Positions 4,456-27,937 of a DNA stretch of 32,223 nt are shown in pieces (position 1 is the first letter of the stretch; the number at the start of each line of letters is the position of its first letter). The notes beneath the pieces were generated by a model. It was not told where the DNA came from. It ran no database searches and saw only the letters and a list, made by a program, of their open reading frames with translations. This DNA is from Pedosphaera sp. (GTDB lineage Bacteria > Verrucomicrobiota > Verrucomicrobiia > Limisphaerales > UBA1096). The DNA lies in assembly GCA_022451065.1 (NCBI GenBank), contig JAKUOU010000041.1:1-32223 (forward strand), read 5' to 3'. The translations under genes and the position numbers were made by a program.

Positions 4456-4624
4456 TCGATTAATTCAATGAACATCAAAAAAGGTATTCACTGAAGGGGA
4501 GGAATTCTGGAGCAATAAAAGGCTCAGGTCGAGCTAGGATTCGGAGGACTAAACCTTCAAGTTTTGCAGCCGATCCGGTGCTTTAACCCCTTAAGGCCGG
4601 GTTAGCCAGAAGCGTGGACTACAT

Positions 4625-4663
4625 CAACCATGAGGGTGTCAAAAAAAAGCTGTCTCATGGTTG
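4625..4663 (-). terminator. Inverted repeat downstream of the esterase gene, possible terminator
   Basis: A perfect 10-bp inverted repeat (CAACCATGAG at 4625-4634, CTCATGGTTG at 4654-4663) lies 8 bases past the stop of the minus-strand esterase gene. The 19-base loop contains an uninterrupted run of eight T on the minus strand. A normal U-tract after the hairpin is missing, so its function as an intrinsic terminator is uncertain. The rest of the 4456-4671 spacer shows no gene that I can support. Confidence 0.35.
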
Positions 4664-4671
4664 CGCTCAGT

Positions 4672-5877: not shown

Positions 5878-5922
5878 CGTGTCTTATTCAATTGTTGTGA
5901 GTAGGAGGTGTTTCATTCAAAA

Positions 5923-6513
5923 TTATTCTTCTTCAATTTTCACCCTAAAAAATGAGGCACCTTTTAATTCTGCACCTAGCTTAATACTCAATCCTTTAGG
6001 CCATTGATATTCTTTTGGCAGCGGCGACGATAACTTAACTCTACTCCAATTCTTTAAATATTTTGACTGCTCTATTATCAGTTTTGGAACTTGAAAAAAT
6101 GGGACATAATCTAATGTGTCAAAATTCAACAGATTTGTTTCAGGATCAAAAACTCCTATGATCTCGACCAAGTAACCAATCAGACCTGCTTCAACTTCAT
6201 ACTCATCCAATTCCGTATAATTCCCCATAAATATCATGTCAGTCTGACGCCATGTCATGTCACCCTTTTCCTCAAATCGAATTGTATGCGGCATACTACT
6301 TCCACCCCGCATTGGAAATATCTTAATAGATTCATACCTTGTTTTTTCCCATCTAAATGGCTCGTGAAAGTTAACAGAGATTTTGACCTTACCATCTTCA
6401 ATAGAGATGCTGATTTCAGGAGTTGAATCATCTTCGTTCGATTGAGCCAATAAAATTACAGGCGATTTAATTGCTAAAATTAGCCCGATCTGTAACAGAA
6501 GTTTTGGTTTCAA
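5923..6513 (-). CDS. Secreted protein of unknown function, AT-rich
   Basis: I do not recognise a family. The 196-residue product begins with a basic tip and a hydrophobic stretch (MKPKLLLQIGLILAIK through about residue 23), consistent with a signal peptide, followed by an acidic region and a beta-rich body. The C-terminal 45 residues contain YLKNWSRV and, about 30 residues on, FFRV. This resembles DLANWFPV and FFQL near the N-terminus of the neighbouring 6639-9896 protein. The gene is visibly AT-rich against GC-rich neighbours and holds no TGGCCA copy, which suggests recent acquisition or unusual history. It ends 45 bases before the esterase start on the same strand. Confidence 0.6.
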   Translation of the reverse strand: MKPKLLLQIGLILAIKSPVILLAQSNEDDSTPEISISIEDGKVKISVNFHEPFRWEKTRYESIKIFPMRGGSSMPHTIRFEEKGDMTWRQTDMIFMGNYTELDEYEVEAGLIGYLVEIIGVFDPETNLLNFDTLDYVPFFQVPKLIIEQSKYLKNWSRVKLSSPLPKEYQWPKGLSIKLGAELKGASFFRVKIEEE

Positions 6514-6559
6514 ATTTTAATATAGATTTATTTTCGGACTTACTTCACGAAAAACAGAC

Positions 6560-6593
6560 CAAAAATGAAAGCACCCGGAAAGCTTCGAGGTGC
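6560..6593 (-). terminator. Putative intrinsic terminator after the dikinase-like gene
   Basis: An imperfect hairpin has outer arms GCACC (6571-6575) and GGTGC (6589-6593) plus a short inner GAA/TTC pairing. On the minus strand it is followed by TTTCATTTTT. It lies about 45 bases past the stop at 6639 and before the next gene start at 6513, as expected for the end of the long minus-strand transcript. The stem is modest, so confidence is moderate. Confidence 0.45.
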
Positions 6594-6638
6594 ACTAAAC
6601 AACAAGAGCATGGTAATTACATTTGCCTTCTTCAAAAA

Positions 6639-9600
6639 TTAAAACACACGAGCCTCGCCGTCGAAACCAATAATCATGGCATTGGCCGAACGCCACCGTT
6701 CGATAAAAAGATAAATCTGCTTCACATCGGCTTCCTCCATCTCTGCCAGCAATTCTTCGGAGATGCCTTCCTCCATCGATGGTTCAAAGATGAACTCCTC
6801 CCAAAAGTTGTGATGCCCCGGAGCGTAGGTCTGCGAGAACCAGCCCTTGAGGACCAGGGGGTCATCGAGCAGGCCGGTGATGGTGGTCTGCTTCCACGCC
6901 TTGAGCGGGGCGGTGTAACCGGCGGTCGGTCCGGTGGGGTGAGGTGGCCAAAAGAATTCTATTTCGATTTTTTTTCCATCCTTTCCCTCTAATAGACGAT
7001 CCTGGGGTAAATCGTCGGGGCTGATTGTCTCGTTCGGATCAAAGGCTGACAACTGGATCTCCTCGGTTTTGACCGACTTGTAGGTTGGCTTGCCCGTTTG
7101 CCAGTCGATGGACAGATTTTTCAAGGGTTTTGAATAGTTTGCCTCCAGATAAACCGGAAGCTCACCAAGGAACACGGCCGGCGAATTCCTGTCGGGCAGC
7201 CAACGTGGGATGGCGACCGACATCTTGTACCTTGTGGTTTTTCCGTCGCGACTTTCCTGCCATTGATCCACCAGCACAGTTTCGTTGCCGCGCTTTCCAG
7301 TGCTGAAACGATGCTTGGGCCAGCCAGCGATGCCATCCTCCACCACCAGCGTCTCCCCATCGACCACCCGTGTCCAATCGGCCGCATTTATGAGTGAACT
7401 CTTTTGGCCGGTGGTCTCCAACACACGGCTGGCCGCGTCGATGTTCCAGATGGATTTTAGCCGGTGATAGGCGAACACCCCGCCACCACCCGTCTCGCCC
7501 TGAAACAAACGCAAAGTCGCCCGTCCGCCGGCAAGTATCGGTGTTGGATCAGTCAACTCCTTCGGCTGCGGCAACTCGCGGACCTGCTTCACCACGATCC
7601 AGTCTGGGTCCACCTTCTTGTACTCAAAATCGAGCGTGTATTTCTTGCGATCAATAGCGTAGCGCGAGAACCCGGGTGCGATTTTTTCGAACAACTTGTG
7701 CAGCGTCTCATAGGCGCTCTTCCAATCCATCACATGGTCGCGGCCAACCTGCAACAAGCTCGATCTTTTGTTAAAATTGAGCGTTCTACCAGTCGATCCG
7801 GATGACGACTTGTAGAAAGAGATGTTCACCTCCTCTGGTACAGCAGCAGAATCTGGGTTGGCCACACTTGTCGCACCCACCTGCGTCGACAAATCGGTAC
7901 GCATGTTGAACGAGCCAGCCGAGTAGGAGTTATAGTCGCCGACGGCCACCCCGTTGGCCAACTCGATCTCGTCCGGAAATGAGTGATGCACAAGGATCGC
8001 CATACCGACATCATCCTCGTCCACGCCGAAACGCCGCCGCTCAAGGTAGGCGTTGTGGTTGTAAAAACTGGCATACACACGCTTGATCGCCCGGAACACA
8101 CCGCGCTCTCCTGACTTTGAACTGTCGCAGCCACACGGGCCGTCGGTGTCGTCGTCGAGGTCATCGAGCAAACAGCCGCTGTAGCTGTCATAAAGTCCCG
8201 CGCCGGTGAAATGGCGACTATCCTCGATATTGGTCGAACTGCGGAAACGAATCTTCTTGGCCCGATCGAATGGCGATAGAGCAGCAATGATTGCCTGCCG
8301 CTGGCTCTCGACAAATTCACCGTCACGAATCAAATCACGAACTGTTTTCAGGGCATCAGCCAAGTCGGATTGCAAGCCGGACTGATGTGCCTTGGCCAAG
8401 CGCGCATCAATCTCCTGGATCATCGACTTGTCGTTGGCCAATCGCTGCTCCATGAACTCATCCCAAAGATCAAACGTGATTGCAATGGCCGGATCGGGCG
8501 AGTTTTTGGGAATCAACTTTCTCAACAAACTAAACTTGGCCGCCTTGCCACCAACCAATTCGCTGTCGTTTGGCTTGATCTGATTCATTGCAAGCGTGTA
8601 TGTGTCGGCCTTATCCTTGGACTCAAATTCCAGCTCTGGCGGCGCCTTGTAGTCGGCGACCGCTTGACGAAATGACTCCGGCAAATCGTCCTCAAGGGCC
8701 ACCAGTGTCGCCGAACCAGACTCCGAGCTGTTGATCCCCCAGCCGGCCGAGGTTCGCAACATCACCTCGCGACCAGCAAGGCTGAGAAGTTGCTCGCGCG
8801 TGGCTGCGGTGCCCTCATAGTAGAATGGTATCCCGAAGTTTTTAGCCAAGATCGCCACGTGTGAATTGGGCGTCGAAGGATTCATTGCCACGATACCTGC
8901 GACCCTCGGAATCTCTGCGGGCACATGGTCGGTGAGTAGGATGTCATCGCTGGTCAGATCACCATTGCGAAATGCCTCGGTAATCTTCTCGCCCTTGATA
9001 AACACCAACTGGCCCATCGCCCACCCGATCGAGTAAATAGCATCCGAGCCGGTTTCCCAGCGCTGCGCTGACACAACCGGAACATTGCGTTGCGCGAGAT
9101 ACTCCGCCACCACGCCGCTGCCGTCCGCCTGCTCGTACGTCGGCATGTAGAGTCCCGTCAACTCCCCCGGTTTTTCAATCGCGCCATCCACCAAATACCA
9201 AAAAAAACTGACCATCGCCGCCGGCAACCTGTCCTGACCCACCAACTGAATCGCATACTCGCTGTTTTTCTCAGAGAACAAAACAGCGCCTATCACCGCG
9301 CGGCGGTCGGCGTGATAGAGTGTTGCACCATCGAACTCCATGTGCGTCATGTCGTCGAACTCCGGCACGTGATCGGTGCCGAAGTCGTAGTGAAATTTTA
9401 GCTTGTTGCCGTCCTGAAAATAAACCGTGGCTAAGTCATCCATCAGCACGGTGAACTTCACCCATTGCGTCTCCTTGGGCACCTTCGTGCCGGGCGGCAC
9501 CCATGCACCGCCATCGGCCGCCTTGAACTCAACGAGGAACTTGTCGCTTGGCAGGCTGATTTTGGTTTTCCAGTTGGCCGATGCGCTGAACGTGGGTGGC

Positions 9601-9896
9601 GTGGTCTCGAGCAGCTGGAAAAAACGGTGTTCGCGCCCTGACGGCTCGCTGAAACCAAGCGACGTCTCCGTCATGGCCGCTACCGGGAACCAGTTGGCCA
9701 AGTCGTCGGAAAACATGAGCGCCCCGACCTGTCCCTGGTCAACGCCGCTGGCCGTGATGGTCGCCTCACCGGGAGCTTGGCCAAGTGTCACGCTCAACTC
9801 GGACGCCCCGGGTAAGACGCAACCGACCGCGAAAAACAACCCACTCAACCAAGATGTGTAGAGCTTAAAACCTCGAAAACAAGTGGACCCCCTCAT
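6639..9896 (-). CDS. Exported PEP-synthase/glucan-dikinase-like protein with permuted domains
   Basis: 1085 residues from the ATG at 9896. An in-frame TTG at 9935, 11 bases after tsaD, would add 13 residues; numbering below is from the ATG. Residues 1-31 look like a signal peptide (basic start, then LSGLFFAVGCVLPGAS). Residues about 35-97 carry a beta module with DLANWFPV and RFFQLL. A phosphohistidine-like segment follows, with STPNSHVAILAKNFGIP (likely His346), resembling the PEP-utiliser mobile domain. Residues about 440-778 then match the ATP-grasp PPDK_N domain: GGKAAKFSLL, IRFRSSTNIEDSRHFTGAG, and a final EYKKVDPDWIVVKQVRE. The histidine domain precedes the ATP-grasp domain, opposite to PEP synthase and as in glucan water dikinases. 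The last 300 residues are unrecognised. It follows tsaD closely. Substrate and activity are unknown; ATP supply outside the cytoplasm would be a puzzle. Confidence 0.8.
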   Translation of the reverse strand: MRGSTCFRGFKLYTSWLSGLFFAVGCVLPGASELSVTLGQAPGEATITASGVDQGQVGALMFSDDLANWFPVAAMTETSLGFSEPSGREHRFFQLLETTPPTFSASANWKTKISLPSDKFLVEFKAADGGAWVPPGTKVPKETQWVKFTVLMDDLATVYFQDGNKLKFHYDFGTDHVPEFDDMTHMEFDGATLYHADRRAVIGAVLFSEKNSEYAIQLVGQDRLPAAMVSFFWYLVDGAIEKPGELTGLYMPTYEQADGSGVVAEYLAQRNVPVVSAQRWETGSDAIYSIGWAMGQLVFIKGEKITEAFRNGDLTSDDILLTDHVPAEIPRVAGIVAMNPSTPNSHVAILAKNFGIPFYYEGTAATREQLLSLAGREVMLRTSAGWGINSSESGSATLVALEDDLPESFRQAVADYKAPPELEFESKDKADTYTLAMNQIKPNDSELVGGKAAKFSLLRKLIPKNSPDPAIAITFDLWDEFMEQRLANDKSMIQEIDARLAKAHQSGLQSDLADALKTVRDLIRDGEFVESQRQAIIAALSPFDRAKKIRFRSSTNIEDSRHFTGAGLYDSYSGCLLDDLDDDTDGPCGCDSSKSGERGVFRAIKRVYASFYNHNAYLERRRFGVDEDDVGMAILVHHSFPDEIELANGVAVGDYNSYSAGSFNMRTDLSTQVGATSVANPDSAAVPEEVNISFYKSSSGSTGRTLNFNKRSSLLQVGRDHVMDWKSAYETLHKLFEKIAPGFSRYAIDRKKYTLDFEYKKVDPDWIVVKQVRELPQPKELTDPTPILAGGRATLRLFQGETGGGGVFAYHRLKSIWNIDAASRVLETTGQKSSLINAADWTRVVDGETLVVEDGIAGWPKHRFSTGKRGNETVLVDQWQESRDGKTTRYKMSVAIPRWLPDRNSPAVFLGELPVYLEANYSKPLKNLSIDWQTGKPTYKSVKTEEIQLSAFDPNETISPDDLPQDRLLEGKDGKKIEIEFFWPPHPTGPTAGYTAPLKAWKQTTITGLLDDPLVLKGWFSQTYAPGHHNFWEEFIFEPSMEEGISEELLAEMEEADVKQIYLFIERWRSANAMIIGFDGEARVF

Positions 9897-9946
9897 AGCG
9901 AGGTGAAAACTAACTCTACCGAAAAAACCAGACAACCGATTAATTT

Positions 9947-10978
9947 TTAGGCTTCCGTCAGTTTCCAGCCGGGGGCGATCTCGGCATCGAGTGGAGTCAT
10001 CTCGCCGCTCCTGGCCAGGCGTAGATGGGCGACCATGCCGACCATCGCAGCGTTGTCAGTGCAGAGCGTTGGATTGGCCAGGCGCAACGCAAAGCCCTCC
10101 GCAGCGCAAGCCTCGTTCAATGCCGCTCGCAGGCCGCTGTTGCATGTCACACCGCCCGAGGCAGTGACGCATTTCGCATCGAGCTTTTTCGCCGCGCGGA
10201 TTGTCTTGGCCACGAGCACCTCGACAATCGCCGCCTGAACGCCGGCACACAGGTCGCGCAGCCGCTGGCCATCCTCAAGCACGCCGGGGTTGTCGCGGAT
10301 GAAATAGCGCACTGAGGTCTTGAGACCGCTGAAGCTGAAATCATGTGACTCGTCGCGCATCATTGGTCGAGGGAAATTGTGTGCTCTGCCCTCACCCTCC
10401 CTGGCCAGGCGGTCCAGCTCCGGTCCGCCGGGATAAGGCAGGCCAATGAGTTTAGCCACCTTGTCGAAGCACTCGCCGGCGGCGTCGTCCACCGTGCCGC
10501 CTAGGACGCGATGCTCGAGCGGCGCGGCGACGTGGACGAGCATGGTGTGGCCTCCACTGACTATGAGTGACAGGTTCGGTTGAAACTCATCGAGCGCCAG
10601 CGACAACGGCTCGCCTCCTATCCACGGCGAGTAAAGGTGAGCCTCGTGGTGGTGAATGCCGACAAAAGGCTTGGACAAGGCGAAGGCCAAACCTTGCGAC
10701 GCCCGCAAGCCAACCAGCAGCGCCCCCGGCAAACCGGGCCCGCGAGTCGCTGCAACGGCATCGAGTTTGTCAGGCGCGACGCCCGCTTGGCGAAGCGCTT
10801 GACTGGCGACCGGCATCAGATTGCGCAGGTGCTCGCGTGAAGCGAGCTCCGGCACAACGCCGCCATACTCCTGATGAATGTTTATTTGGGAGGAAACTGT
10901 GTTGGCCAAAACACAGCCGTCTCGCAGCAGGGCAACGCTGGTTTCGTCACAGGACGTCTCGATGGCCAACAGCAGCAT
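9947..10978 (-). CDS. tsaD: tRNA N6-adenosine threonylcarbamoyltransferase TsaD
   Basis: 343 residues, full length for the Kae1/TsaD/YgjD family. TsaD transfers the threonylcarbamoyl group to A37 of ANN-decoding tRNAs in the cytoplasm, working with TsaB and TsaE. The N-terminal ASKHA signature LLLAIETSCDETSVAL is present. The metal-binding motif HHHEAHLYSPW has the H-x3-H pair at about residues 110 and 114. The C-terminal LCTDNAAMVG supplies the conserved Asp. The gene starts 36 bases after the ctpA stop, in a spacer that contains one palindrome copy, and ends just before the dikinase-like gene, so the three are probably co-transcribed. Confidence 0.97.
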   Translation of the reverse strand: MLLLAIETSCDETSVALLRDGCVLANTVSSQINIHQEYGGVVPELASREHLRNLMPVASQALRQAGVAPDKLDAVAATRGPGLPGALLVGLRASQGLAFALSKPFVGIHHHEAHLYSPWIGGEPLSLALDEFQPNLSLIVSGGHTMLVHVAAPLEHRVLGGTVDDAAGECFDKVAKLIGLPYPGGPELDRLAREGEGRAHNFPRPMMRDESHDFSFSGLKTSVRYFIRDNPGVLEDGQRLRDLCAGVQAAIVEVLVAKTIRAAKKLDAKCVTASGGVTCNSGLRAALNEACAAEGFALRLANPTLCTDNAAMVGMVAHLRLARSGEMTPLDAEIAPGWKLTEA

Positions 10979-10994
10979 GGGAGGGAAACAGCTT

Positions 10995-11008
10995 CGCTTG
11001 GCCAGGCG
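10995..11008. repeat. Iterated palindrome copy in the ctpA-tsaD spacer
   Basis: CGCTTGGCCAGGCG is a 14-base near-palindrome with one mismatched pair, around the TGGCCA core. It is a non-coding member of the dispersed TTGGCCAA family and lies between the ctpA stop and the tsaD start. Confidence 0.7.
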
Positions 11009-11014
11009 CCGAAA

Positions 11015-12496
11015 TCACTCCGGCTTATCGGCCGGTTTGTTATCGTCCTTGGCCTCGGACTTCGGCTTGGATTCTTTTTTCGGCTCTTCCTTAGTCTCCG
11101 GTTTCTCAACCGGTTTTTCCTTTTTTTCCGGCTTGGAATCAGCCTCTTTCTTTTGCGGCTCCTGTTCCTTTTCTTTTTCCTCCGGTTTTCCCTCTTCCGG
11201 CTTGGTCTTGGCTTGCAGTTGCTTTTTGCCGACGAGCAGTTCCATCGCCTTGGCCAACTGTGGATCGACGAATTTCTCAACATCCTCGCGTCGATTGTCC
11301 GGCACCATCTTAAGGCCGCCTGGCGTGCGCCGGAGGAAGAGCAGTTCCTCGTCCTCCCGGCTGAATTTAACCTCGTGATGCGGCTCGATCCCCTTGCCGT
11401 GAATAACCTGGTGGCTCGGGGTGTAATACTTGGCCGTGGTCAGGCGCAGCGCGGCACCCTGCTGACCATTGATCGGCAGAATCTTCTGCACCGAACCCTT
11501 GCCAAAGGTTTTTTCGCCGACGATCTTGGCACGATCGTTATCCCTGAGGCAGCCAGCGACAATCTCCGAGGCACTAGCGCTGAATCGGTTCACCAGTACC
11601 ACCAGCGGCAGCTCGGGCCGGGCGTTCCGGCCAGACGCCTCATGCTTGGCGTTCTCTCGGCGTCCCTCGGTGGTGACGATTGGCTCTCCCTTGGCGAGGA
11701 ACTTTTCGCAAACCTTGATCGCCTGGTCGAGCAGACCGCCTGGGTTGTGGCGCAGATCAAGCACGAGGCCCTTCATGTCCTCCAGTTCAAGCTTGCGTAG
11801 GGCCTCCTCGAGATCACGCGCGGTTGCCTCACCAAACTGGGTCAGGCGCACATAGCCAATCTTGTTTTCGTCAACGGTGAACTTGCGCTGGTTGTCGATG
11901 TCCTTAACGGTGGCAACCTTAATCAGCGCCCGCTTGAGGGTGACCTCAATGTCCTTCCGGGTGGACGGCCGGAAGAGTGTCATTGTGACTTTCGAACCCG
12001 GCTTGCCCCTGAGCTTGTCCATCGCCTCCGGCATGGAAATGTTGCGGGCGTTTTTGCCCTCGATCTTCACGATGCGGTCGCCCGACATGACGCCCGCCTC
12101 ATAGGCCGGCGTGTCCTCCATCGGCGCCAACACTGTGAGGTAGCTATCCTGAATGTTGATGTGCACGCCGACACCGCCGAACCGCCCCTCGGTATCGTCC
12201 ATCAGATGCGTGTACCGGGTGGGCGGCATGAATTCGCTGTGCGGGTCGAGCATGCCGATCATGCCCCGCAACGCGCCGTGCACAAGATCCTCGTAGGTCA
12301 ACTCGCCACCATCGACGTAGTCGCGCCGGACGCGCTCGAGCACGTTGACAAACAGGTCGAGATTGGCATGGGGATCGTTGACGGTTGAGTTGGCGTCGGA
12401 CTCGGAATAAACCTTGGCCCCTATCGCCAGGTTCAATAACAACACCCCGAGCACCACGCCATGGAGAATTCTTCTTCCAGCCTTGGTCTGTAGCAT
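11015..12496 (-). CDS. ctpA: C-terminal processing protease, S41 family, with charged tail
   Basis: 493 residues from the ATG at 12496. This start leaves a 46-base spacer after the upstream gene and begins directly with a basic tip and membrane anchor (residues 8-27). Order: anchor; helical N-terminal region with LVHGALRGMIGMLDPHSEFM; PDZ domain about 100-185 containing FGGVGVHI and GVMSGDRIVKIEG; S41 peptidase core. FSASASEI gives the nucleophile Ser308 and TFGKGSVQ the general base Lys333, spaced as in E. coli Prc. Residues from about 424 form a lysine/glutamate/proline-rich low-complexity tail. The family cleaves exposed C-termini of periplasmic proteins. Its position behind a polysaccharide cassette may be incidental, or it may act on envelope proteins. 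Confidence 0.95.
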   Translation of the reverse strand: MLQTKAGRRILHGVVLGVLLLNLAIGAKVYSESDANSTVNDPHANLDLFVNVLERVRRDYVDGGELTYEDLVHGALRGMIGMLDPHSEFMPPTRYTHLMDDTEGRFGGVGVHINIQDSYLTVLAPMEDTPAYEAGVMSGDRIVKIEGKNARNISMPEAMDKLRGKPGSKVTMTLFRPSTRKDIEVTLKRALIKVATVKDIDNQRKFTVDENKIGYVRLTQFGEATARDLEEALRKLELEDMKGLVLDLRHNPGGLLDQAIKVCEKFLAKGEPIVTTEGRRENAKHEASGRNARPELPLVVLVNRFSASASEIVAGCLRDNDRAKIVGEKTFGKGSVQKILPINGQQGAALRLTTAKYYTPSHQVIHGKGIEPHHEVKFSREDEELLFLRRTPGGLKMVPDNRREDVEKFVDPQLAKAMELLVGKKQLQAKTKPEEGKPEEKEKEQEPQKKEADSKPEKKEKPVEKPETKEEPKKESKPKSEAKDDNKPADKPE

Positions 12497-12527
12497 CGCC
12501 CGGCGACCATACGCCCATCCGGCCCGA

Positions 12528-12536
12528 TTGGCCAAG
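12528..12536. repeat. Iterated palindrome copy in the spacer before ctpA
   Basis: TTGGCCAAG lies between the stop of the adenylate-forming enzyme gene and the ctpA ATG. It is a non-coding member of the dispersed palindrome family. Confidence 0.65.
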
Positions 12537-12542
12537 CGGGAA

Positions 12543-13931
12543 TCAGAGCCGACTGATGAGCCAAGTCTGCTTGCCGCGTGGCGTCTTTTCAACCTCCTCA
12601 ACCTCTCGTAACACCAGTCGAAAATCGTCGCCGAGCTTCCGTAAAATGGCACTTTCAACTTGAGCCAGGCCCGATGAGTGAAATCCCGGGGATGGGATGT
12701 AGCGAAATTCAGCCACTCCCGGTTCGGATTGGAAAAATTGCACGGCATACAGCCCGTCGAAGATCGCGTCGTGCATGTTGAAGGCGGTCAGCGAGATGCG
12801 TCGCCCCGTGCCAGTGACCAGAAATTCCTGTCCGCGCCCGGCAATCTCTTCGACTGCGGGCCAGGCAAATTCCCGCCTCGCCTCCGGCTTGGCCAGGCGT
12901 ACGAAGTCGCCAGTGCGGTAGCGCACCAACGGCATTGCCATGTTGTGAAATGTGGTGCCGATGACTTCCTGCAACCCGTCAGCATCCGGCTCGCCAAACT
13001 CAACGAAACCGTAGTGCGGCCAGAAATAAAACAGCTCCGACTGCGCGCCCTCAGACGCGAGGACAACGCGTTCGGCGTGTCCGTACCATCGATGCACGCG
13101 GCATTGGAACACGCCCTCGAGGAGACGTTTTTGCGAGAGAGTCAACTGCTCCGAGCCACACAACATGCTCTGGAGCGGCGTGCGCCAGCGCTGGTCGTGC
13201 CGCTGCAAAAAGTCCGCCAACTGCAACGCCGCAGATGGGTAGATGTTTAAAAAGTCCGGCTGAAATTTTTCCAGCGCCTCAAGGTATTCCGGAATACGCT
13301 CGTCGGTGAGGTGGTATGACGAGAGCATCAGCCAGTCGCGGGTGGCGTCGTGCGCAATGATGTCGCCCGTAGCCCGCGAGTCGGTGACGTGACCTCGGAT
13401 CAACGCTAGACGCGCCTTGTCAAAATACCCGGCGCGCCGCCAGTTGGCCTCGAGGAATGCCTGCTCCTTCGGCCGGCTGACCCCCTTCTGCAAATGGAAC
13501 CCAACCGGTACACCGGTCGACCCGCCAGTGGTGATGTAAAGTTTCTGAGAGTCGGAAATGCCGGTTGATGTCAGTTCGTCAAACTGTTGCTGGATATCCG
13601 GCTTGGTTAGAAACGGACAGCCGGTGAAATCGTCGAGCGACATCATTGCATCCGGACGAAAACCGGCTTTCGCAAAAGAACGGCTGTAAAACGGACAGTA
13701 GCTCGCGGCGTTGACGAGTGTACGGCGCAACTCGCGCAACTGGTACTCGCGGATGTCCTGTTCGCTCCAGTTCGGCGCATCGTCGGCGAGCTCGCGGAAC
13801 TCGCCGTATGCCTTACCGTAGCGAATGCGACGTGGAAGCCGTCGGTACGCCGCGCCGACGAAATTGCGCACCCCCTGCGGCAGCCGGTCGTACAACGAGA
13901 GCAACGGATAAAGATTGTCCTCGAGACTCAT
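12543..13931 (-). CDS. PaaK/CapK-like adenylate-forming enzyme
   Basis: 462 residues from the ATG at 13931, chosen because it overlaps the upstream stop as ATGA; the longer frame would run into the DUF362 gene. The AMP-binding loop LYITTGGSTGVPVGF lies at 131-145. GYVEFGEP-like (GFVEFGEPDADG) and later RYRTGDF segments match the phenylacetate-CoA ligase/CapK superfamily. These enzymes activate carboxylates as acyl-adenylates, and CapK-like members are common in capsule clusters with undefined chemistry. As the fifth gene of a coupled polysaccharide cassette it may activate an acyl or amino-acid decoration of the sugar polymer; that role is inference. Confidence 0.82.
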   Translation of the reverse strand: MSLEDNLYPLLSLYDRLPQGVRNFVGAAYRRLPRRIRYGKAYGEFRELADDAPNWSEQDIREYQLRELRRTLVNAASYCPFYSRSFAKAGFRPDAMMSLDDFTGCPFLTKPDIQQQFDELTSTGISDSQKLYITTGGSTGVPVGFHLQKGVSRPKEQAFLEANWRRAGYFDKARLALIRGHVTDSRATGDIIAHDATRDWLMLSSYHLTDERIPEYLEALEKFQPDFLNIYPSAALQLADFLQRHDQRWRTPLQSMLCGSEQLTLSQKRLLEGVFQCRVHRWYGHAERVVLASEGAQSELFYFWPHYGFVEFGEPDADGLQEVIGTTFHNMAMPLVRYRTGDFVRLAKPEARREFAWPAVEEIAGRGQEFLVTGTGRRISLTAFNMHDAIFDGLYAVQFFQSEPGVAEFRYIPSPGFHSSGLAQVESAILRKLGDDFRLVLREVEEVEKTPRGKQTWLISRL

Positions 13932-15325
13932 CGCTTGGCTTGGTTTCCCGGCTCTAGCTCGATTGCACCGACCCAGCCGAAGTGCGGCTTGAACGCAAAT
14001 CGATCGCCCGCTTGGCCAAGTGGCCCATCCCACTCCGACTTGTTCGAGGCGATGCTTATGTCGCTTGACCGAAATGGGATAAAGTTGCGCTTCTGAATCT
14101 CAAAACTGTTCTTCAGCAACCGCAGCTTTTGCCAGTCGAAACCCATGAGCGTCGCGGCTGCCATGTCCACCGCGGCCGGATGGATGCCGGCAAGGATGAC
14201 GCCGCAAGGCTTCGCATCGGGCGACATGGGGCCGTTGCCCTCGCCCCCGATGATACCATCAACCACCGCCAGATAGCGCAACGGCTTTTGGCGCGGCTGC
14301 CCGGCGCCGTCGAAATCGTACAGACACTTGTTGAGGTCCAGCACCATGCGCCAGCAGGTATCGTTGCCGTGCCAGTTGCCGGAGCGGACGACCTTCTGCG
14401 TGTCGCCGAAAAACAGGCGACCCAGCTTTTTCACCGGCACGAATAGGCGAGAGAGCAGCGGCCGACCGTTGACAATGCGCTTGGCCCGGCCCATCCACGA
14501 ATGCTCGAGCTTGGCTTTCGCAGTCGAGGCAGGGAACTGATCGCCGCCCTGGTCGGGTGTGCCCTCGGTGTGGTGCGGCAGCCAGTTTTTGTTGGCATTA
14601 ATACCGACGAGGTTTTTCAGCGCACAGGTCACACCGACTTTTTTGTGGGACTTGAGCTTCGGCAGATTGATGAGCACGTCGGCATCCATCGGCGTGCGGC
14701 ACAGCATGTACTCATGGCGCCCGCCGGAGTGGCGCTCATTTGTCTCGGCCATGTTGAAAGAAGCGCCGAACAAACGGCCGTCGCCGTGGAATCCGACGAA
14801 CTCACTGGCGTCGTTCAGCCCGACGAATGTTTCACCCGCCGGATCACCGGGGAGCTGCGTTTTTGAAACGGTGACACCGTCCACCGCATGCCACTCCTCC
14901 GGGCGCAGATCGAGCAACTCGATCGTCGTGCCGGGGAAGTCACGGCGGCAGCGCTCGACCATTTCGTCGAGACCGCAGTATTGGTTAAGCGCGGCAAACG
15001 ACGAGTCAGTTTGCGGCGCGTCACAAATCGTGATCGAGCCGCTCCCCGCCAGCTGCGTGCCGGCCCAGCGGATGACCGCCTCGATGACGGCTGGGTGAGT
15101 AACAACGTGCTCCCACTGGCCGGGGCCGGGATGACGCTCGTCGTGTTCCTTGACCCAGTTCGGCTTCAGCACGACACGGTCGTGTGGGCGGACATAATCA
15201 TCCGGCAGGCCAAGTGCGTCCAGCGCCTCGCCAACAAGCGAGTCAATGGCGGCGGGATCGTCATAGTGGTCGACCCCACGAAAGGCCGAGACGCGCGCGG
15301 GATCCAGTTGTCCGTCTGTATTCAC
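13928..15325 (-). CDS. DUF362 domain protein
   Basis: 465 residues starting at a GTG (15325) that overlaps the upstream glycosyltransferase stop as GTGA. The pattern VVLKPNWVKE near residue 50, followed by ITICDAPQTDSS, DVLINLPKLKSHKKVGVT and CALKNLVGIN, is characteristic of DUF362 (PF04015). A C-terminal GEGNGPMSPDAKP and AVDMAAATLMGFD are also typical. No ferredoxin-type cysteine cluster is present, unlike DUF362 proteins fused to 4Fe-4S domains. The family has no established general function. Its place between glycosyltransferases and the PaaK-like enzyme, with four-base overlaps on both sides, suggests a dedicated role in making or modifying the polysaccharide. Confidence 0.85.
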   Translation of the reverse strand: MNTDGQLDPARVSAFRGVDHYDDPAAIDSLVGEALDALGLPDDYVRPHDRVVLKPNWVKEHDERHPGPGQWEHVVTHPAVIEAVIRWAGTQLAGSGSITICDAPQTDSSFAALNQYCGLDEMVERCRRDFPGTTIELLDLRPEEWHAVDGVTVSKTQLPGDPAGETFVGLNDASEFVGFHGDGRLFGASFNMAETNERHSGGRHEYMLCRTPMDADVLINLPKLKSHKKVGVTCALKNLVGINANKNWLPHHTEGTPDQGGDQFPASTAKAKLEHSWMGRAKRIVNGRPLLSRLFVPVKKLGRLFFGDTQKVVRSGNWHGNDTCWRMVLDLNKCLYDFDGAGQPRQKPLRYLAVVDGIIGGEGNGPMSPDAKPCGVILAGIHPAAVDMAAATLMGFDWQKLRLLKNSFEIQKRNFIPFRSSDISIASNKSEWDGPLGQAGDRFAFKPHFGWVGAIELEPGNQAKR

Positions 15326-16506
15326 TCGTTTTCCAGCGCCAACAGTGCGGCACGGATTTTTTCACCGAACGCCCGACGCGTAAAGTGCCGCAGAAACTGA
15401 TCGCGCAGGCCAGCCTCGTCGATGCGGCCGAGAAAGCCGTCGAGCCGGTCGGCGATTTGGCCGGGTGATTTTGTGTCCACGAGCCCTTCGTAGCCGGCGG
15501 GAAAGAGTTCCGGCAGAATCCGCCAACGGGTCACCACGATCGGCAGGCCGTGCGCCATCGCCTCGATAAGGCTGACCGGGTGCGCCTCGAACTCATAGTA
15601 CGACGCCAGCACGAACGCGTCGGCTTGGGCTAAGAGCTCACTCTTTTTAGATTCATCGGCGAAGCCGTGGTAAACAACGAGCGGCCCATGGTCGTCGTTC
15701 AAGTCGGCTTGGCCAAGTCGCTCTTCAAATTCAGTCTCTTCCCCGGCGAGATAAAATCTGCCGGCAACGTCGAGTTGCACGCGCGCAGACAGGTGCCTGG
15801 CCTGCAGGCGGCCGTTCAACTCGGCAACAGCATCAACGGCATCGAACAACCCTTTATCGCGGTAGCAAAGACTGAGGTATAGCACGTGAAACGTCACCAG
15901 TGGCCCGCCTCCTGAAAGAGCTTGGCCAAGCGCTTTGGCGCGGGCCTGCTGAACAGATTGCAGCTTATCGGCATAGTCAGGGCAGGGGTCGGACGCACAG
16001 TTCGGCACGGTAACGATCTTGAGTGGCGAGAGCTTGGCAGCATCCTCATGATAGTAATCGCCCAGCACGATGCTCAGCGCTGGTCGGCCCAGCAGCAGCC
16101 GCGACACCCATCGCTCCCAGGCGTACGCCCCGGTCTGGAGCCAGTCACCGACACCAGCCGCCTGGTAGTGATAAATGATCCGCAGAAAAAACGGGCGGCA
16201 CAGCAGCATCACGATCCAGTCCCGGTAAACGGCGTTGCGCAGGCCGGGTGCTGGGACGTAGTAGAAATGGTTCACGCCGTGGCGTAACCGCAGCCAAACG
16301 GCCTTGAGGCAGTAGCCAAGGAGCAGGCCAAGTTTGCGCAGGCTTGCGGAAGCGATGTCATCGACTTCTTTCGAGAGGCGGCTGTTGACGTGAAAGATCT
16401 CGATCGATTGGTCGTCACCACTGCGCAGCTCGTCGAGCAGCTGCTGCACCATGAAACTTTGGCCATGGAACGGCGGCGGGACATGTGCAAAGACGAGCAG
16501 TTTCAT
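15322..16506 (-). CDS. Glycosyltransferase, GT4-like
   Basis: 394 residues from the ATG at 16506, which overlaps the upstream gene stop as ATGA; the start MKLLVFAHVPPPFHGQ is a standard GT-B first strand and glycine loop. The C-terminal half has the GT4 nucleotide-sugar site: DAFVLASYYEFEAHPVSLIE contains the E-x7-E pattern, followed by AMAHGLPIVVT. It is expected to transfer a sugar from a nucleotide donor to a lipid-linked acceptor at the cytoplasmic membrane face. Two palindrome copies lie inside, both read as Leu-Gly-Gln (RLGQAD, ALGQAL). Donor and linkage are unknown. Confidence 0.9.
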   Translation of the reverse strand: MKLLVFAHVPPPFHGQSFMVQQLLDELRSGDDQSIEIFHVNSRLSKEVDDIASASLRKLGLLLGYCLKAVWLRLRHGVNHFYYVPAPGLRNAVYRDWIVMLLCRPFFLRIIYHYQAAGVGDWLQTGAYAWERWVSRLLLGRPALSIVLGDYYHEDAAKLSPLKIVTVPNCASDPCPDYADKLQSVQQARAKALGQALSGGGPLVTFHVLYLSLCYRDKGLFDAVDAVAELNGRLQARHLSARVQLDVAGRFYLAGEETEFEERLGQADLNDDHGPLVVYHGFADESKKSELLAQADAFVLASYYEFEAHPVSLIEAMAHGLPIVVTRWRILPELFPAGYEGLVDTKSPGQIADRLDGFLGRIDEAGLRDQFLRHFTRRAFGEKIRAALLALENE

Positions 16507-17633
16507 GACACGTCGCCGTTGCGCTTGGCCATCTGCCGATACACGTGGTTGTATTTGGCGGCCATCTCGCTGGCGGCCCAACCGCGGACGCTCTCGCGGA
16601 TTTCGCCTGGCGGCGACGGGGTGAAGTCGCCGTTTAGGATGGCGGCGATTTGGTCGCGCAAACCGTCAATGCTACCGGTCTCATACAGCAGGCCGGTCGT
16701 GCCTTCCTGCACGATATCAACGTTGCCGCCGCTGCGGGCCGCAAGGGCGGGGAGGCCCAGCGCGAGGGCTTCCATCAGCGACACGCTGCACGGCTCGTTC
16801 TCCGAGGCGACGACGACGAAATGGCCATCGCGCAGGGCATCGGTGACCTGATTAGTCACACCTCGCAGCAGAACAATTTCCTGTAGGCCATGTTGCTCGA
16901 TCGATTCGCGCAGCTGCTCGGCGAATGCCTGCGAGTCGGGATCGCCCTGCTCCGGCCCCCAGAGATGAAACTCGACGCGGGCCTTGAGGTCGGCAGGCAG
17001 CCTCGCCAGGGCAGCGATAGGGTGATGCCAGCATTTCCAGCGGACAAGCGTGCCCATGCCAACGAGCCTGAGCTTGGCCAAGGGATCAGCGCTTGGCCAA
17101 GTGTTGGCGGTGAGCGGCTCCTGCAAAAAACGATCGGCGCAGCCGGAAAAAATAATGCTGCACCTGGGCGGCCCGACCTCGAGGCCATAATGCGCGGCCA
17201 TGTTGGGGTTGAGCACCACGGTGGTCATCCAGTCACGCCGCGCCGCCCAGCGGTAAAACCAGGCACGGCTGGCATAGCTGTGGTTCGTGAATAGAACCTG
17301 CCGGCCGAGAAACAGGCCAGCTAGCAACGCGACGATGAGTCCACCGCGCGTGTGCGCGTGAATCACATCGAATGACTCCTGCTGGAGCAGTTTGCGCAGG
17401 CTGAAAAACGCCAGCGCGCTGGAAAAAAAAATGGCGATGTGACTCGGCGAGTCGCTGGCGATGAATCCGGTGCGCCGGTAGTCAAGCGCCGGTGCACGGG
17501 TTTCCGCATATTCCCGGTGAACCCAGACCGTATGCCGGGTGCCGACTGCGGATCCGGCTTGGTGCAGGCTGCGGATCACCGCAAGGATGCCGCCGGCATC
17601 CTCGCGCTGGCCGACCAGGTGGAGGATTCTCAT
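16503..17633 (-). CDS. Glycosyltransferase family 4
   Basis: 376 residues from the ATG at 17633, overlapping the upstream membrane-protein stop as ATGA. MRILHLVGQREDAGG is the N-terminal GT-B Rossmann start, FDVIHAHTRGG is the usual second motif, and the C-terminal half holds ENEPCSVSLMEALALGLP with the E-x7-E pair and GTTGLL downstream. It is likely a cytoplasmic enzyme extending a surface polysaccharide. Two perfect palindrome copies 19 bases apart sit at 17073-17101, encoding TWPS and PLAK in different codon phases. Confidence 0.92.
   Translation of the reverse strand: MRILHLVGQREDAGGILAVIRSLHQAGSAVGTRHTVWVHREYAETRAPALDYRRTGFIASDSPSHIAIFFSSALAFFSLRKLLQQESFDVIHAHTRGGLIVALLAGLFLGRQVLFTNHSYASRAWFYRWAARRDWMTTVVLNPNMAAHYGLEVGPPRCSIIFSGCADRFLQEPLTANTWPSADPLAKLRLVGMGTLVRWKCWHHPIAALARLPADLKARVEFHLWGPEQGDPDSQAFAEQLRESIEQHGLQEIVLLRGVTNQVTDALRDGHFVVVASENEPCSVSLMEALALGLPALAARSGGNVDIVQEGTTGLLYETGSIDGLRDQIAAILNGDFTPSPPGEIRESVRGWAASEMAAKYNHVYRQMAKRNGDVS
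17073..17101. repeat. Close pair of CTTGGCCAAG palindromes
   Basis: Perfect decamers at 17073-17082 and 17092-17101 lie inside the glycosyltransferase gene. On the coding strand the first-read copy gives Trp-Pro-Ser and the second Leu-Ala-Lys, so the same DNA word occurs in two codon phases within 29 bases. Confidence 0.85.
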
Positions 17634-19212: not shown

Positions 19213-19884
19213 CTACTCCGGATTGATCTGCGCCATCCTCAGCTTCAGTTCTTCCTTCAAGGCATTTCGCTGTTCCTGGGTGACTTTCCGAGGCACTGCC
19301 AGCGGATTGCCAAACACCACGTCACAGCGTGTCAACGGCCATGGCAGCTGGAATCGATCCCAGCTTTTGAAGCGATACTTTCGGTTGGCTTGACAACCAA
19401 GCGGAACAATCGGCAGGCCGGTCACCTGGCCAAGCGACAGGATACCTTCCTGTATCTCGTGACACGGGCCGCGCGGGCCGTCAGGCGTGACGGCCAAGTG
19501 CAAGCCAGCCTTTGCTTGCCGAGATAATTCCAGCAACGCCTGGCGACCTCTCCGACTGGTCGAGCCACGAACCGGCTCGATGCCAAAAGCACGCAGAACC
19601 TCCACGGCGAACGCGCCATCCTTGCTCGCGCTGACCATCGCAACCACCTTACGGCCGGTTTTCGGCTGGATAACATCACGAGTTGCAAAGAGCGCATAGA
19701 TGATCCGGTTGTGCCATGCGCAGAGAATAAACGGCCGGTCGCGGGCAGTATCCATAATCCCATGTGGATCGGACACACGAACGCGCCACGTGAAGCGCAG
19801 CACCCGGAGCAATACATAAACCAGCCGGGCCGCCAGCCGTTGGCCAAGCCCTGCCTCGTTCGGGATGACAACCTGCGTGTCCAA
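19213..19884 (-). CDS. DUF374 lysophospholipid acyltransferase-like protein
   Basis: 223 residues from a TTG at 19884, 7 bases after the ruvA stop. An alternative TTG at 19932 would overlap ruvA by 41 bases and add 16 residues, so the shorter form is preferred. Conserved DUF374 blocks are visible: FILCAWHNRIIYAL with the catalytic-type histidine, VRGSTSRRGRQALLEL, and LAVTPDGPRGP. DUF374 proteins are relatives of lysophospholipid and lipid A acyltransferases, so an inner-membrane role in lipid or lipid A acylation is plausible but not proven. It follows ruvA on the same strand. Confidence 0.85.
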   Translation of the reverse strand: MDTQVVIPNEAGLGQRLAARLVYVLLRVLRFTWRVRVSDPHGIMDTARDRPFILCAWHNRIIYALFATRDVIQPKTGRKVVAMVSASKDGAFAVEVLRAFGIEPVRGSTSRRGRQALLELSRQAKAGLHLAVTPDGPRGPCHEIQEGILSLGQVTGLPIVPLGCQANRKYRFKSWDRFQLPWPLTRCDVVFGNPLAVPRKVTQEQRNALKEELKLRMAQINPE

Positions 19885-20623: not shown

Positions 20624-21922
20624 ATGAAGGTCTCGATTTTCGGTCTTGGCTATGTCGGCGCAGTCACTGCCGGGTGTCTCACCAAGGTGGGGCACACCGT
20701 CGTGGGCGTAGATGTGCAGGCCGAAAAAGTCGAGTCGATCGCCAGCGGCGTATCGCCCATCATCGAGCCGGAGCTGGATGGCCTCCTCGCTGAGGCGGCA
20801 AAAAACGGCCTGCTCTCGGCCACTCAAAATCACGAGCAGGCCATAGAGACGACCGATGTGTCGCTCGTATGCGTCGGCACGCCGTCGGCTGAGAACGGCG
20901 AACTTAATCTGCAATTTGTACGGCAGGTCACCGGGCAGATCGCTGACAAGGTTCGTGTCTCCGGCAAGTCGCACGACCTTGTCCTGCGCAGCACGATGCT
21001 CCCCGGCAGCACCCAAAAAATTGCCACCGACCTGCTCGCCGACCTGCTCGAATCCGGCAAACTGCGCCTCTTTTTTTATCCAGAATTTTTGCGCGAAGGC
21101 ACCGCGGTGGCCGACTTCGACGACCCGTCACTGGTCGTCGTCGGCACGCACGACGGCTCGGCGTTTCCCAACGAGTTGTCGCCCCTTTTCGGCGCGGACG
21201 CCCCGTCGGTGAACTGGCCCAGCGCCGAGATGGTCAAGTACGCCTGCAACGCCTTCCACGCAACGAAGGTGACGTTTGCCAATGAGATCGGCCGCATTGG
21301 CAAAAACATGGGCGTCGATTCGAGGTCGGTAATGCGACTGCTCTGCCAGGACACGCGCCTCAACTTATCGCCGTATTACCTGCGCCCCGGCAACCCGTTC
21401 GGCGGCTCATGCCTGCCCAAGGACGTCCGCGCGCTGACGCACGAGGGGCGGCGAGGCGGCGAGGAACTACCGCTGCTCGAGAGCCTGCTGCCGAGCAATG
21501 AGGCGCATTTGGCCAAGCTCATCGAGTTGACCAAGAGACTGGCCAAGGACCGTGTCACCCTCCTTGGTCTGTCATTTAAGAGCGACACGGATGACCTCCG
21601 CGAAAGCCCGATGGTCGAGGTCGCGCAGCACCTACTCGGGCGCGGATTCGAACTGAGCATTTACGATCCGCAGCTTAATCTGGCCAAGCTCATCGGCACC
21701 AACAAGCGCGTGATCGACGAGAAAATGCCGCACTTAGCCACGCTGCTGACCGGTGACCTAGGCGCCGCGCTTGGCCAATCGGGGCTCGTGATCGCGGCGC
21801 AAAAGTGCATCGACCTCGAGACACTCCGGCCGCTCATCACGACCGAACACACGCTACTCGATGTCAACGGCTGGCCAGAACTGCGCGACTTGCCGGCCCA
21901 CTACGAAGGATTCTGCTGGTGA
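20624..21922 (+). CDS. Nucleotide-sugar 6-dehydrogenase, GDP-mannose dehydrogenase-like
   Basis: 432 residues. The enzyme oxidises a nucleotide sugar to its uronic acid with two NAD+. The N-terminal Rossmann motif is FGLGYVG (GxGxxG at 7-12). The central helix KYACNAFHATKVTFANEIG carries the conserved lysine. The catalytic cysteine is Cys263 in GGSCLPKDVRAL. The GGSCLPKDVRALT wording and IIEPELDGLLAE are closer to AlgD-type GDP-mannose dehydrogenase than to Ugd (GGSCFPKD), but substrate assignment from motifs is tentative. Its stop overlaps the next gene's GTG. It probably supplies uronic acid to the polysaccharide made by the glycosyltransferases here. Four or more palindrome copies lie inside. 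Confidence 0.92.
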   Translation: MKVSIFGLGYVGAVTAGCLTKVGHTVVGVDVQAEKVESIASGVSPIIEPELDGLLAEAAKNGLLSATQNHEQAIETTDVSLVCVGTPSAENGELNLQFVRQVTGQIADKVRVSGKSHDLVLRSTMLPGSTQKIATDLLADLLESGKLRLFFYPEFLREGTAVADFDDPSLVVVGTHDGSAFPNELSPLFGADAPSVNWPSAEMVKYACNAFHATKVTFANEIGRIGKNMGVDSRSVMRLLCQDTRLNLSPYYLRPGNPFGGSCLPKDVRALTHEGRRGGEELPLLESLLPSNEAHLAKLIELTKRLAKDRVTLLGLSFKSDTDDLRESPMVEVAQHLLGRGFELSIYDPQLNLAKLIGTNKRVIDEKMPHLATLLTGDLGAALGQSGLVIAAQKCIDLETLRPLITTEHTLLDVNGWPELRDLPAHYEGFCW

Positions 21923-24712: not shown

Positions 24713-24722
24713 CTTGGCCAAG
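24713..24722. repeat. Perfect palindrome CTTGGCCAAG between convergent genes
   Basis: A non-coding perfect copy of the dispersed palindrome, in the 21-base gap between the stops of the MFS gene and rmuC. Confidence 0.85.
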
Positions 24723-26080: not shown

Positions 26081-26090
26081 CTTGGCCAAG
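26081..26090. repeat. Perfect palindrome CTTGGCCAAG in the rmuC-pyrD spacer
   Basis: A perfect copy of the dispersed palindrome just upstream of the chosen pyrD start. A TTG inside it is in frame with pyrD, but using it as the start would add only four residues that do not resemble PyrD. Confidence 0.8.
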
Positions 26091-26093
26091 TCG

Positions 26094-27209
26094 ATGCTCG
26101 ACGGCTTGGCGCCTCCGCCTGACAATCCGCCTGTGTCTTGGCTCTACAAGACGTTCGTTCGACCGAACTTTTTTCAGCGCGACCCCGAGGAAACGCATAA
26201 CCTCGTTATCAACCAACTCGCCTGGGCGGCCCGGAGGCGCTGGGCACTGGGCTTGGCCGGATGTTTTTTGCGCGGCCCTAGACTACCCATCGAGTTGTTC
26301 GGGTTGACCTTCCCCAACCCGCTTGGCCTCGCCGCCGGCATGGACAAGGGCGGCTCGGCGATCCCGGCCTGGGCCGCGCTGGGACTTGGTTTCAGTGAAT
26401 TGGGCGGCGTCACACGACACGGGCAGCCCGGCAACCCGCAGCCGCGCATGTTCCGCGTGGTCGAGGACGAGGCACTCATCAACCGCATGGGCTTCAACAA
26501 TCCCGGCGCTAATGCGATGGCCGAGCGGCTCGGTGACTGTCGCGACTCCGGTGCCTGGCCCAGCCACCCAGTCGGCGTCAACCTTGGCAAATCCAAAGTC
26601 ACGCCGCTCGCCGATGCGCCCGCCGATTACCTGTACTCGTTTCGGTTGCTGAAAAATCTCGCTGACTTTTTTGTCGTCAACGTCAGCTCGCCGAACACGC
26701 CGAACCTCCGACAGTTGCAGGACAAGTCGGCGCTGGCCGAGATTCTCGGCGCATTGCAGGAGGTAAACGATAGCCACCAGCCGATCCTCGTCAAGGTCGC
26801 GCCTGATCTGGGTTTTAAGGCGCTCGACCAGATTCTTGAGTTGGTCGAGCCGTACAACCTCGCCGGCCTTGTCGCCACCAATACCACCAACGCACGTCCC
26901 ACCCAAACCGGGATTTACGCTGAGCCCGGCGGCTTAAGTGGCCGCCCCTTGGCCAAGCGCAGCACCGAAGTCATCCGGCACCTCTACCAGCAGTCGGGCG
27001 GCCGCGTGCCGCTCATCGGAGTTGGCGGCATTTTTGACACCAACGACGCTTGGGAAAAAATCACTGCCGGCGCATCGCTACTGCAGATTTACTCCGGTTT
27101 GGTTTACGAAGGGCCGCAAATCATACGCATCATCCTGAAGGGACTAACCAAGCGGCTGGCCCGTGAAGGCTTCACGGAACTGAGCCAAGCCGTCGGAACC
27201 GAACAATGA
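26094..27209 (+). CDS. pyrD: Dihydroorotate dehydrogenase (quinone), class 2
   Basis: 371 residues from the ATG at 26094; a GTG at 26133 just before SWLYKTFVRP is a good alternative that matches the usual family N-terminus better. PyrD oxidises dihydroorotate to orotate in pyrimidine synthesis and passes electrons to quinones at the membrane. The N-terminal helix DPEETHNLVINQLA is the class 2 quinone-binding region. FMN and substrate motifs are clear: LTFPNPLGLAAGMDKGG, INRMGFNNPG, NVSSPNTPNLR with the catalytic serine, IATNTT-like VATNTTNA, GGLSGRPL and IGVGGIF. The stop overlaps the next gene as ATGA. Confidence 0.96.
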   Translation: MLDGLAPPPDNPPVSWLYKTFVRPNFFQRDPEETHNLVINQLAWAARRRWALGLAGCFLRGPRLPIELFGLTFPNPLGLAAGMDKGGSAIPAWAALGLGFSELGGVTRHGQPGNPQPRMFRVVEDEALINRMGFNNPGANAMAERLGDCRDSGAWPSHPVGVNLGKSKVTPLADAPADYLYSFRLLKNLADFFVVNVSSPNTPNLRQLQDKSALAEILGALQEVNDSHQPILVKVAPDLGFKALDQILELVEPYNLAGLVATNTTNARPTQTGIYAEPGGLSGRPLAKRSTEVIRHLYQQSGGRVPLIGVGGIFDTNDAWEKITAGASLLQIYSGLVYEGPQIIRIILKGLTKRLAREGFTELSQAVGTEQ

Positions 27210-27937
27210 ACCCCGCCTGGCCAAGCGCGTTGCTGCTGTTGACTGTCTGGACGGTCAGGGCGGACGATGCAGACCAACTCCGGGCGCTTGGCGGCAGCGT
27301 GTTCACCAAAGGCGACGTAGTTGCGGAGATCAACCTCAACCGTTCGAAGATCAGCGATGACCAACTGAAACTCGTCGCCGGTTTCGGGCATCTCACCGAC
27401 CTCTCGCTTGAGCAAACCAAGATTGGCGATGCCGGACTCGCGCACCTCGCCGGTTTGATCAAGCTTGAGTGGCTCAACCTTTACCAGACACAAGTCGGCG
27501 ACTCCGGGCTCAGGCACCTGACCAAACTGCCGCGGCTCCAGCATCTGCCGATCGGCGAAACCAGGGTGAGCGATGCAGGCATGGAACACATCGCGAAAAT
27601 GAAACGGCTGGTTTACCTCGGCCTACGCGGGAACAAGATCAGCGACGCGGCGTTGGCGCACCTGGCCAAGCTGACCAGGCTGACCGAACTGCACCTCGGC
27701 GAAACCGGCATCACCGACAAGGGCACAAGGCAGCTCGCCGCGCTTGGCCAGCTACAAAAACTGTGGCTGTACGACACGCGCATCACTGACGCAAGCGTGC
27801 CGCGCCTAGCCGGGCTCAAGCAGTTGCAGGCGCTCTATCTGCATCGGACGCGACTGACCGTCGAGGGCGTCCGGCGGCTACAAAAGGCACTGCCGAAGTG
27901 TCGTATTTTTTACCGCTCGGCCAACATGCCGGAATAA
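27206..27937 (+). CDS. Secreted leucine-rich repeat protein
   Basis: 243 residues. A signal peptide (hydrophobic ALLLLTVWTV, likely cleavage after VRA near residue 19) is followed by about eight consecutive 24-residue leucine-rich repeats. They have the form LxxLxLxxTxIxDxGLxHLAxLxx, for example LTDLSLEQTKIGDAGLAHLA. This repeat type is frequent in Planctomycetota and Verrucomicrobiota and makes a solenoid for protein binding; the partner is unknown. The ATG overlaps the pyrD stop, so it is co-translated with an unrelated metabolic gene. Palindrome copies fall inside the signal peptide (WPS) and in the repeats (LAK, LGQ). Confidence 0.85.
   Translation: MNPAWPSALLLLTVWTVRADDADQLRALGGSVFTKGDVVAEINLNRSKISDDQLKLVAGFGHLTDLSLEQTKIGDAGLAHLAGLIKLEWLNLYQTQVGDSGLRHLTKLPRLQHLPIGETRVSDAGMEHIAKMKRLVYLGLRGNKISDAALAHLAKLTRLTELHLGETGITDKGTRQLAALGQLQKLWLYDTRITDASVPRLAGLKQLQALYLHRTRLTVEGVRRLQKALPKCRIFYRSANMPE

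Follow-up and report, generated by a model that had tools for sequence, protein, structure and literature searches.

Why does one palindrome, TTGGCCAA, stand twice within a few bases of a single gene, each time in another codon phase, and does its cause lie in the protein or in the DNA? The gene encodes a family-4 glycosyltransferase (16503–17633, minus strand) and is located in the window, that is, the whole stretch of 32,223 bases which was analysed. As originally predicted, it holds two exact copies 19 bp apart. The first (17074–17081) is in the Leu-Ala-Lys (LAK) phase and the second (17093–17100) is read as T-W-P(-S), with Trp-Pro-Ser.

Copies of the Palindrome in the Window

The window contains 25 exact copies of TTGGCCAA, against a mean of 0.92 and a maximum of 4 in 100 dinucleotide shuffles. 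Fifteen have their first base at codon position 1 (Leu-Ala-Lys/Asn), seven at codon position 2 (xGlyGln), and one, at 17093, at codon position 3 (Trp-Pro). The other two are outside called genes (12528–12535 and 24714–24721, the latter between genes). Besides the first member of the pair, copies in the LAK phase are located at 3644–3651, 3965–3972, 4046–4053 (81 bp from 3965), 8392–8399, 11250–11257, 21509–21516, 26949–26956, and 28849–28856. Copies in the LAN phase are found at 3785–3792, 7954–7961, 8434–8441 (42 bp from 8392 and in helical phase with it), 9694–9701, and 10902–10909. One copy, at 26082–26089, coincides with a called TTG start, a start codon that is possibly miscalled. The xGlyGln copies are read as VGQ at 5773–5780 and as LGQ at 9777–9784, 14012–14019, 15709–15716, 15922–15929, 19840–19847, and 21771–21778. 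The copy at 9777 is 83 bp from that at 9694, and this pair keeps helical phase across differing codon phases.

The copies listed in the original prediction are real, but five of their positions were one base too low (17073, 15708, 15921, 14011, and 9776 instead of 17074, 15709, 15922, 14012, and 9777). The position 27217 had been taken for a further Trp-Pro-Ser copy. It is a near-copy, CTGGCCAA (CGCCTGGCCAAGCG; 27217–27224), of the CGC[CTGGCCAA]GCG type with one mismatch, and the window has one exact Trp-Pro copy, not two. Another near-copy, TTGGCCAG (CGCTTGGCCAGGCG; 10998–11005), belongs to the most frequent one-step variant class.

The gene at 2488–4455 (minus strand) encodes a 655 aa protein, in which an N-terminal formate dehydrogenase gamma-like part is fused to a NuoF-like part. 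Within 410 bp it carries the word four times, and six matches to the protein are found in G016, a close relative. At 6639–9935 (minus strand), a protein of ~1,050–1,098 aa is encoded, the mid-part of which matches the N-terminal nucleotide-binding part of PEP synthase alone.

A Graded Palindrome Restricted to One Genus

In the whole source assembly (G000; 3.48 Mb in 244 contigs), TTGGCCAA is present 1,745 times and the reversed control word 117 times. The 10-mer CTTGGCCAAG is found 982 times against 11 for its reversed control (89-fold), and in the richest relative (G008) 3,274 times against 19 (172-fold). The respective densities of TTGGCCAA are ~500 per Mb in G000 and ~1,080 per Mb in G008. 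The alignment of copies showed a graded palindrome of ~14–16 bp, with a consensus of about SCGCTTGGCCAAGCGS and with TTGGCCAA as its core. Information is similar in both halves and none is present outside the palindrome. An asymmetric true motif, first suspected from counts of TGGCCAAG, was ruled out by the symmetry of the flanks.

Copies show mild clustering in G000, with 51 close pairs (<200 bp) observed against 32 ± 5 expected. The copies of this genome are not evenly spaced, unlike what has been claimed for uptake sequences. A recurrent 12 bp tandem, TTGGCCAAGCGCTTGGCCAA, was found at L212:14509, L214:9217, L215:12188, L223:92, and other places. The flanks of its two sites overlap (GCGC). 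This distance is the most frequent of the very short spacings and is out of phase with the other distances, off the 10.5 bp rhythm described below.

The palindrome is a property of one uncultured marine genus of Verrucomicrobiota, all members of which are incomplete metagenome assemblies (61–93%). Eighteen of its 21 genomes are rich in TTGGCCAA (1,086–4,314 copies). The three motif-poor members (G001, G005, and G019) have 192–265 copies, are 67–76% complete, and show ~40–42% G+C in the stretches read. No replacement word was found in 186 kb of these AT-rich genomes, and TTGGCCAA, though residual, still ranks first among their 8-mers. In a single-gene tree of NuoF, two of them form one clade (G019 is without a homologue), but the root is unsafe since the outgroup is too distant.

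None of the other genera represented in 424 genomes of Verrucomicrobiota is comparably rich. In detail, the 37 genomes that belong to the order but to other families reach at most 350 8-mers (reversed control 207), and the 387 further genomes at most 76 10-mers. Among named relatives, those nearest to the TsaD protein of the window are uncultured marine Verrucomicrobiota; the four TsaD loci of at least 81% identity have 68 copies, 45 of them as the 10-mer, in 50 kb, and the next 45 loci (53–74% identity) have 12 copies in 649 kb, with no 10-mer.

The word is also found in a viral contig of 13.7 kb (L312/L388; IMGVR_UViG_3300032087_002358, 1–13670), with 8 copies of TTGGCCAA against 0.26 expected; the contig was picked through a 14-mer search, so at least one copy is there by selection, and eight are still far above chance. 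Its genes include a terminase, a DnaB-like helicase, a DnaD-like loader, an exonuclease, and RusA. Relatives with 59–89% terminase identity carry 0–2 copies, and a search for more phages with a wider exact 21-letter pattern gave no matches. This phage may copy the word of its host.

The Force Acts at the DNA Level

Codon phases were tabulated for 286 coding copies in 675 kb (19%) of G000, with genes from a simple codon-score caller and therefore approximate. All three phases are used, as the original prediction stated, but very unevenly: 160 copies are LAK/LAN, 103 xGQ, and 23 xWP. A within-gene shuffle of synonymous codons expects 33.5, 15, and 1, respectively, so every phase is in excess (4.7×, 6.8×, and 23×). 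The places where the protein permits the word are occupied alike in the three phases, at 0.40/0.32/0.34 in G000 and at 66%, 60%, and 43% in G008, so that the word stands at as many as 66% of the LA[KN] places. This similarity indicates that the inequality of the phase counts is mainly due to what the proteins can tolerate. A single dominant phase matching codon-pair bias, which would have spoken for a protein-level or codon-level cause, was not found.

LAK and LGQ tripeptides are 3.2–4.9 fold over expectation in motif-rich genomes, where control tripeptides stay at about 0.8–1.3; in relatives without the motif, LAK is at 1.1 and LGQ at 0.83 of expectation. A DNA-level signal thus reshapes protein sequences across the genome, and the force behind it is strong enough to alter proteins. 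Noncoding DNA takes part as well, both in the phasing described below and in density: outside genes, copies are 1.4× as dense as inside them in G000, 1.7× in G008, 1.3× in G016, and 0.8× in a small sample of G014.

In the stretches of G000, G008, and G016, the first tenth of genes has about twice the copy density of mid-gene, to which start-codon miscalls may contribute. Convergent intergenic DNA of the same three genomes is dense in copies.

Homologues were compared in pairwise alignments of ~175 kb at 80–84% identity. Copies are retained exactly in the relative in 52% of cases, and local in-phase control windows in 25%. The raised conservation is confined to the motif itself. Among the one-step variants, T→C at the outer base leads (38 of 80). 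The original prediction of a DNA-level cause is supported by these results, except that the insertion process it had allowed for is not supported. Only 5 of the 275 aligned copies (1.8%) face a gap in the relative, compared with 3.0% of local controls; the changes are point substitutions. Insertion as the origin of the copies was rejected, as the gap counts are below those of the controls.

Copies Lie on One Face of the Helix

The helical phasing of inter-copy distances is the new result of this work. The spacing test was applied to 1.76 Mb from the genus. Distances pile up at 19–22, 29–33, 38–43, 50–54, and 60–63 bp, with troughs between them. At a period of 10.5 bp, over distances of 15–203 bp, exact copies reach a Rayleigh power of 25.4 and scored copies one of 47.7, whereas 1,000 jitters that keep the codon phase averaged ~1 and did not exceed 8.6 and 6.0, respectively. 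The best period among 4–40 bp is 10.45 (range 10.45–10.5 bp). Coherence extends to ~180 bp, and nothing is seen beyond ~200 bp (204 bp).

The phase optimum, 10.5k−1.1, is common to all three distance classes modulo 3, and phasing is present in all codon-phase classes. Distances divisible by 3 phase most strongly, with peaks at 21, 42, and 63 bp. Pairs involving noncoding DNA (N = 154) have a power of 11.5. Because pairs common to related genomes are not independent, results are also given per genome: the power is 17.3 in G000, 13.7 in G008, and 32.0 in G016, and with one pair per 2 kb it is still 5.2, 6.2, and 14.6, respectively. In the window, the pair in the glycosyltransferase gene is in phase, 0.9 bp off the optimum. 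The pairs at 19, 42, and 83 bp fall within 1.1 bp of it and that at 81 bp within 1.9, but those at 141 and 180 bp are not near it.

The phasing depends on the motif. Its strength declines with the match score of the partner (0.31, 0.22, 0.21, 0.12, 0.03, and 0.02), and when all 256 tetramers in the surroundings of strong copies were screened for periodicity, pieces of the motif took the first eleven places. No phasing was seen in unrelated palindromes, weak GGCC sites, or non-motif relatives. Control words sharing TTGGCCAA or TGGCCA, and GCCTCGGCCGAGGC, do show a signal. This is expected, because a full motif copy itself passes their score threshold (it scores 13.0 against GCCTCGGCCGAGGC, with the threshold at 12.5). 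Places of LAK, LGQ, or WP which permit the word but are free of it show no phasing (65 pairs only). After synonymous shuffles of the coding sequence a weak residue remains, which is what a prior shaping of the amino acids by the word would leave. Copies with an in-phase neighbor are not more conserved than those with an out-of-phase one (0.53 vs. 0.56), and this weakens the case for present-day selection on spacing.

A Putative Docking-Site Array and Its Alternatives

These results are probably best explained if the palindrome is a genome-wide array of docking sites for a putative dimeric nucleoid protein that binds cooperatively. The simplest cause of a two-fold symmetry combined with same-face spacing would be a dimeric protein with neighbor contacts along or across the DNA. 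One putative dimer would occupy each site of 14–16 bp through its two-fold symmetry, with CGCTTGGCCAAGCG as the predicted target. Adjacent dimers, up to ~17 helical turns apart, may touch or bridge each other. In this case the same DNA face would work best and selection would favor spacings near 10.5k−1 bp. Copies would be tolerated outside genes as well as in all three codon phases, as far as the encoded protein can accommodate them, even at the price of altered amino acids. The sites number thousands and are mostly intragenic, which suggests chromosome architecture over promoter control. The data themselves show the hyperabundance, the graded two-fold symmetry, the DNA-level cause, the conservation above controls, and a helical phasing that declines with match strength; from these we infer a bound protein as the cause, its cooperative action, and its architectural role. 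Against this reading, thousands of GC-rich palindromic sites would be unusual for such a protein, in-phase copies are not more conserved, and the 12 bp spacing is out of phase.

The alternatives differ mainly in what they make of the symmetry and of the phasing. The word could be a DNA uptake signal, with a competence receptor that prefers DNA with the motif and recombination that spreads it, as in Neisseriaceae and Pasteurellaceae. We regard this as unlikely. The density of 0.5–1 per kb and the extragenic enrichment do resemble uptake sequences, and ComEC is found in 10 of the 21 incomplete genomes and in none of the three motif-poor ones, though these are only 67–76% complete. However, 8 of the 18 motif-rich genomes gave no ComEC, and four of the five order relatives that lack the motif have it. 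In addition, known uptake sequences are not palindromic (PMC1939737), the word here is symmetric, and a receptor gives no reason for the phasing of neighbors over 180 bp. A HIP1-type element, made or kept by a DNA methyltransferase together with mismatch repair, is very unlikely. It would fit the hyperabundance of an 8-base palindrome in and between genes, as well as the lead of T→C at the outer base, since the one-step variants of HIP1 also concentrate at outer bases according to Elhai (PMC4390886). In Elhai's model, every HIP genome has a methyltransferase matching part of the word (PMC4390886). Here, PF01555, PF02086, and PF07669 methyltransferases are absent from all 21 genomes of the genus, PF00145 is present in one (a C5 enzyme of G008, C53), and PF02384 gives three borderline matches only, near E = 4e-4, although it is present in all five order relatives tested. 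Phosphorothioation by DndC, a candidate at GGCC, had no match in 26 genomes. With methyltransferases essentially absent, the methylation model does not fit. Nor does it predict helical phasing, and none was seen for HIP1 in six 50 kb stretches of cyanobacterial plasmids (300 kb; 41 GCGATCGC pairs, power 0.1), a weakly powered comparison on plasmids and not on chromosomes. CGATCG on the same 300 kb was also unphased (276 pairs, power 1.1).

The near absence of DNA methyltransferases, by which the genus appears to be without restriction-modification, speaks in part for another alternative, a self-marker or Chi-like signal of recombination or repair read by an enzyme on double-stranded DNA. The viral contig, with its surplus of copies, likewise looks as if adapted to the word of the host. 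Yet Chi sites are directional and lack symmetry, same-face spacing is not needed for a marker, and only one phage is clearly enriched, with few copies in its relatives; the idea seems quite improbable to us. Least of all can a functionless origin be credited, either through mutation or codon-pair bias or through the alpha-helix or heptad periodicity of proteins. Heptads would also yield 21, 42, and 63 bp, in line with the strongest phasing at distances divisible by 3. On the contrary, phasing is also seen at distances not divisible by 3 and in noncoding pairs, it is lacking at the motif-free tripeptide places (only 65 pairs) and in unrelated words, and synonymous shuffles stay far below the observed counts.

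The docking-site array remains the preferred reading. As a more tentative extension, which we hold at somewhat less than an even chance, this methylation-poor lineage might compact its chromosome through a same-face, cooperative putative protein on palindromes that dictate amino acids, and its phages might copy the code. With the same-face signature, the function becomes accessible to pull-down and spacing assays.

Comparison with Known Systems

Since its description in 1995, HIP1 has posed the question of what highly iterated palindromes do, and one leading idea links them with DNA methylation. HIP1 (GCGATCGC) and the alternate HIPs of cyanobacteria are, like the word here, hyperabundant palindromes of ~8 bp. 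HIPs reach about 1,000–2,000 copies per Mb, and the word here roughly 0.5–1 per kb. HIPs similarly occur in and between genes, in all phases and lineage-wide, and are reduced in some members. The word and the phylum differ, and the consensus here is longer and graded, with no matching methyltransferase in the genome. This is an independent highly iterated palindrome in a second phylum, in a genus with almost no methyltransferases. HIP1 was unphased on the plasmids tested, whereas the palindrome here is helically phased. Xu et al. (2018) reportedly found a periodicity of HIP1 at the chromosome scale, 10–90 kb, a scale different from that of helical phasing.

The DUS of Neisseriaceae and the USS of Pasteurellaceae share with the present word its density, genome-wide spread, enrichment outside genes, and likely selection or drive at the DNA level. 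They are asymmetric, while the word here is palindromic and helically phased.

Helically phased palindromic sites with contacts between neighbors are known from cooperative architectural regulators, such as Lrp-type octamers and looping repressors. Their sites number in the tens to hundreds and are mainly promoter-proximal, whereas the present word has thousands, most of them intragenic. Site spacing by whole helical turns, a trait of arrays of cooperative architectural proteins, is found here as well. The physical signature of the palindrome, copies on one helix face up to ~180 bp, points to a bound, cooperating putative protein.
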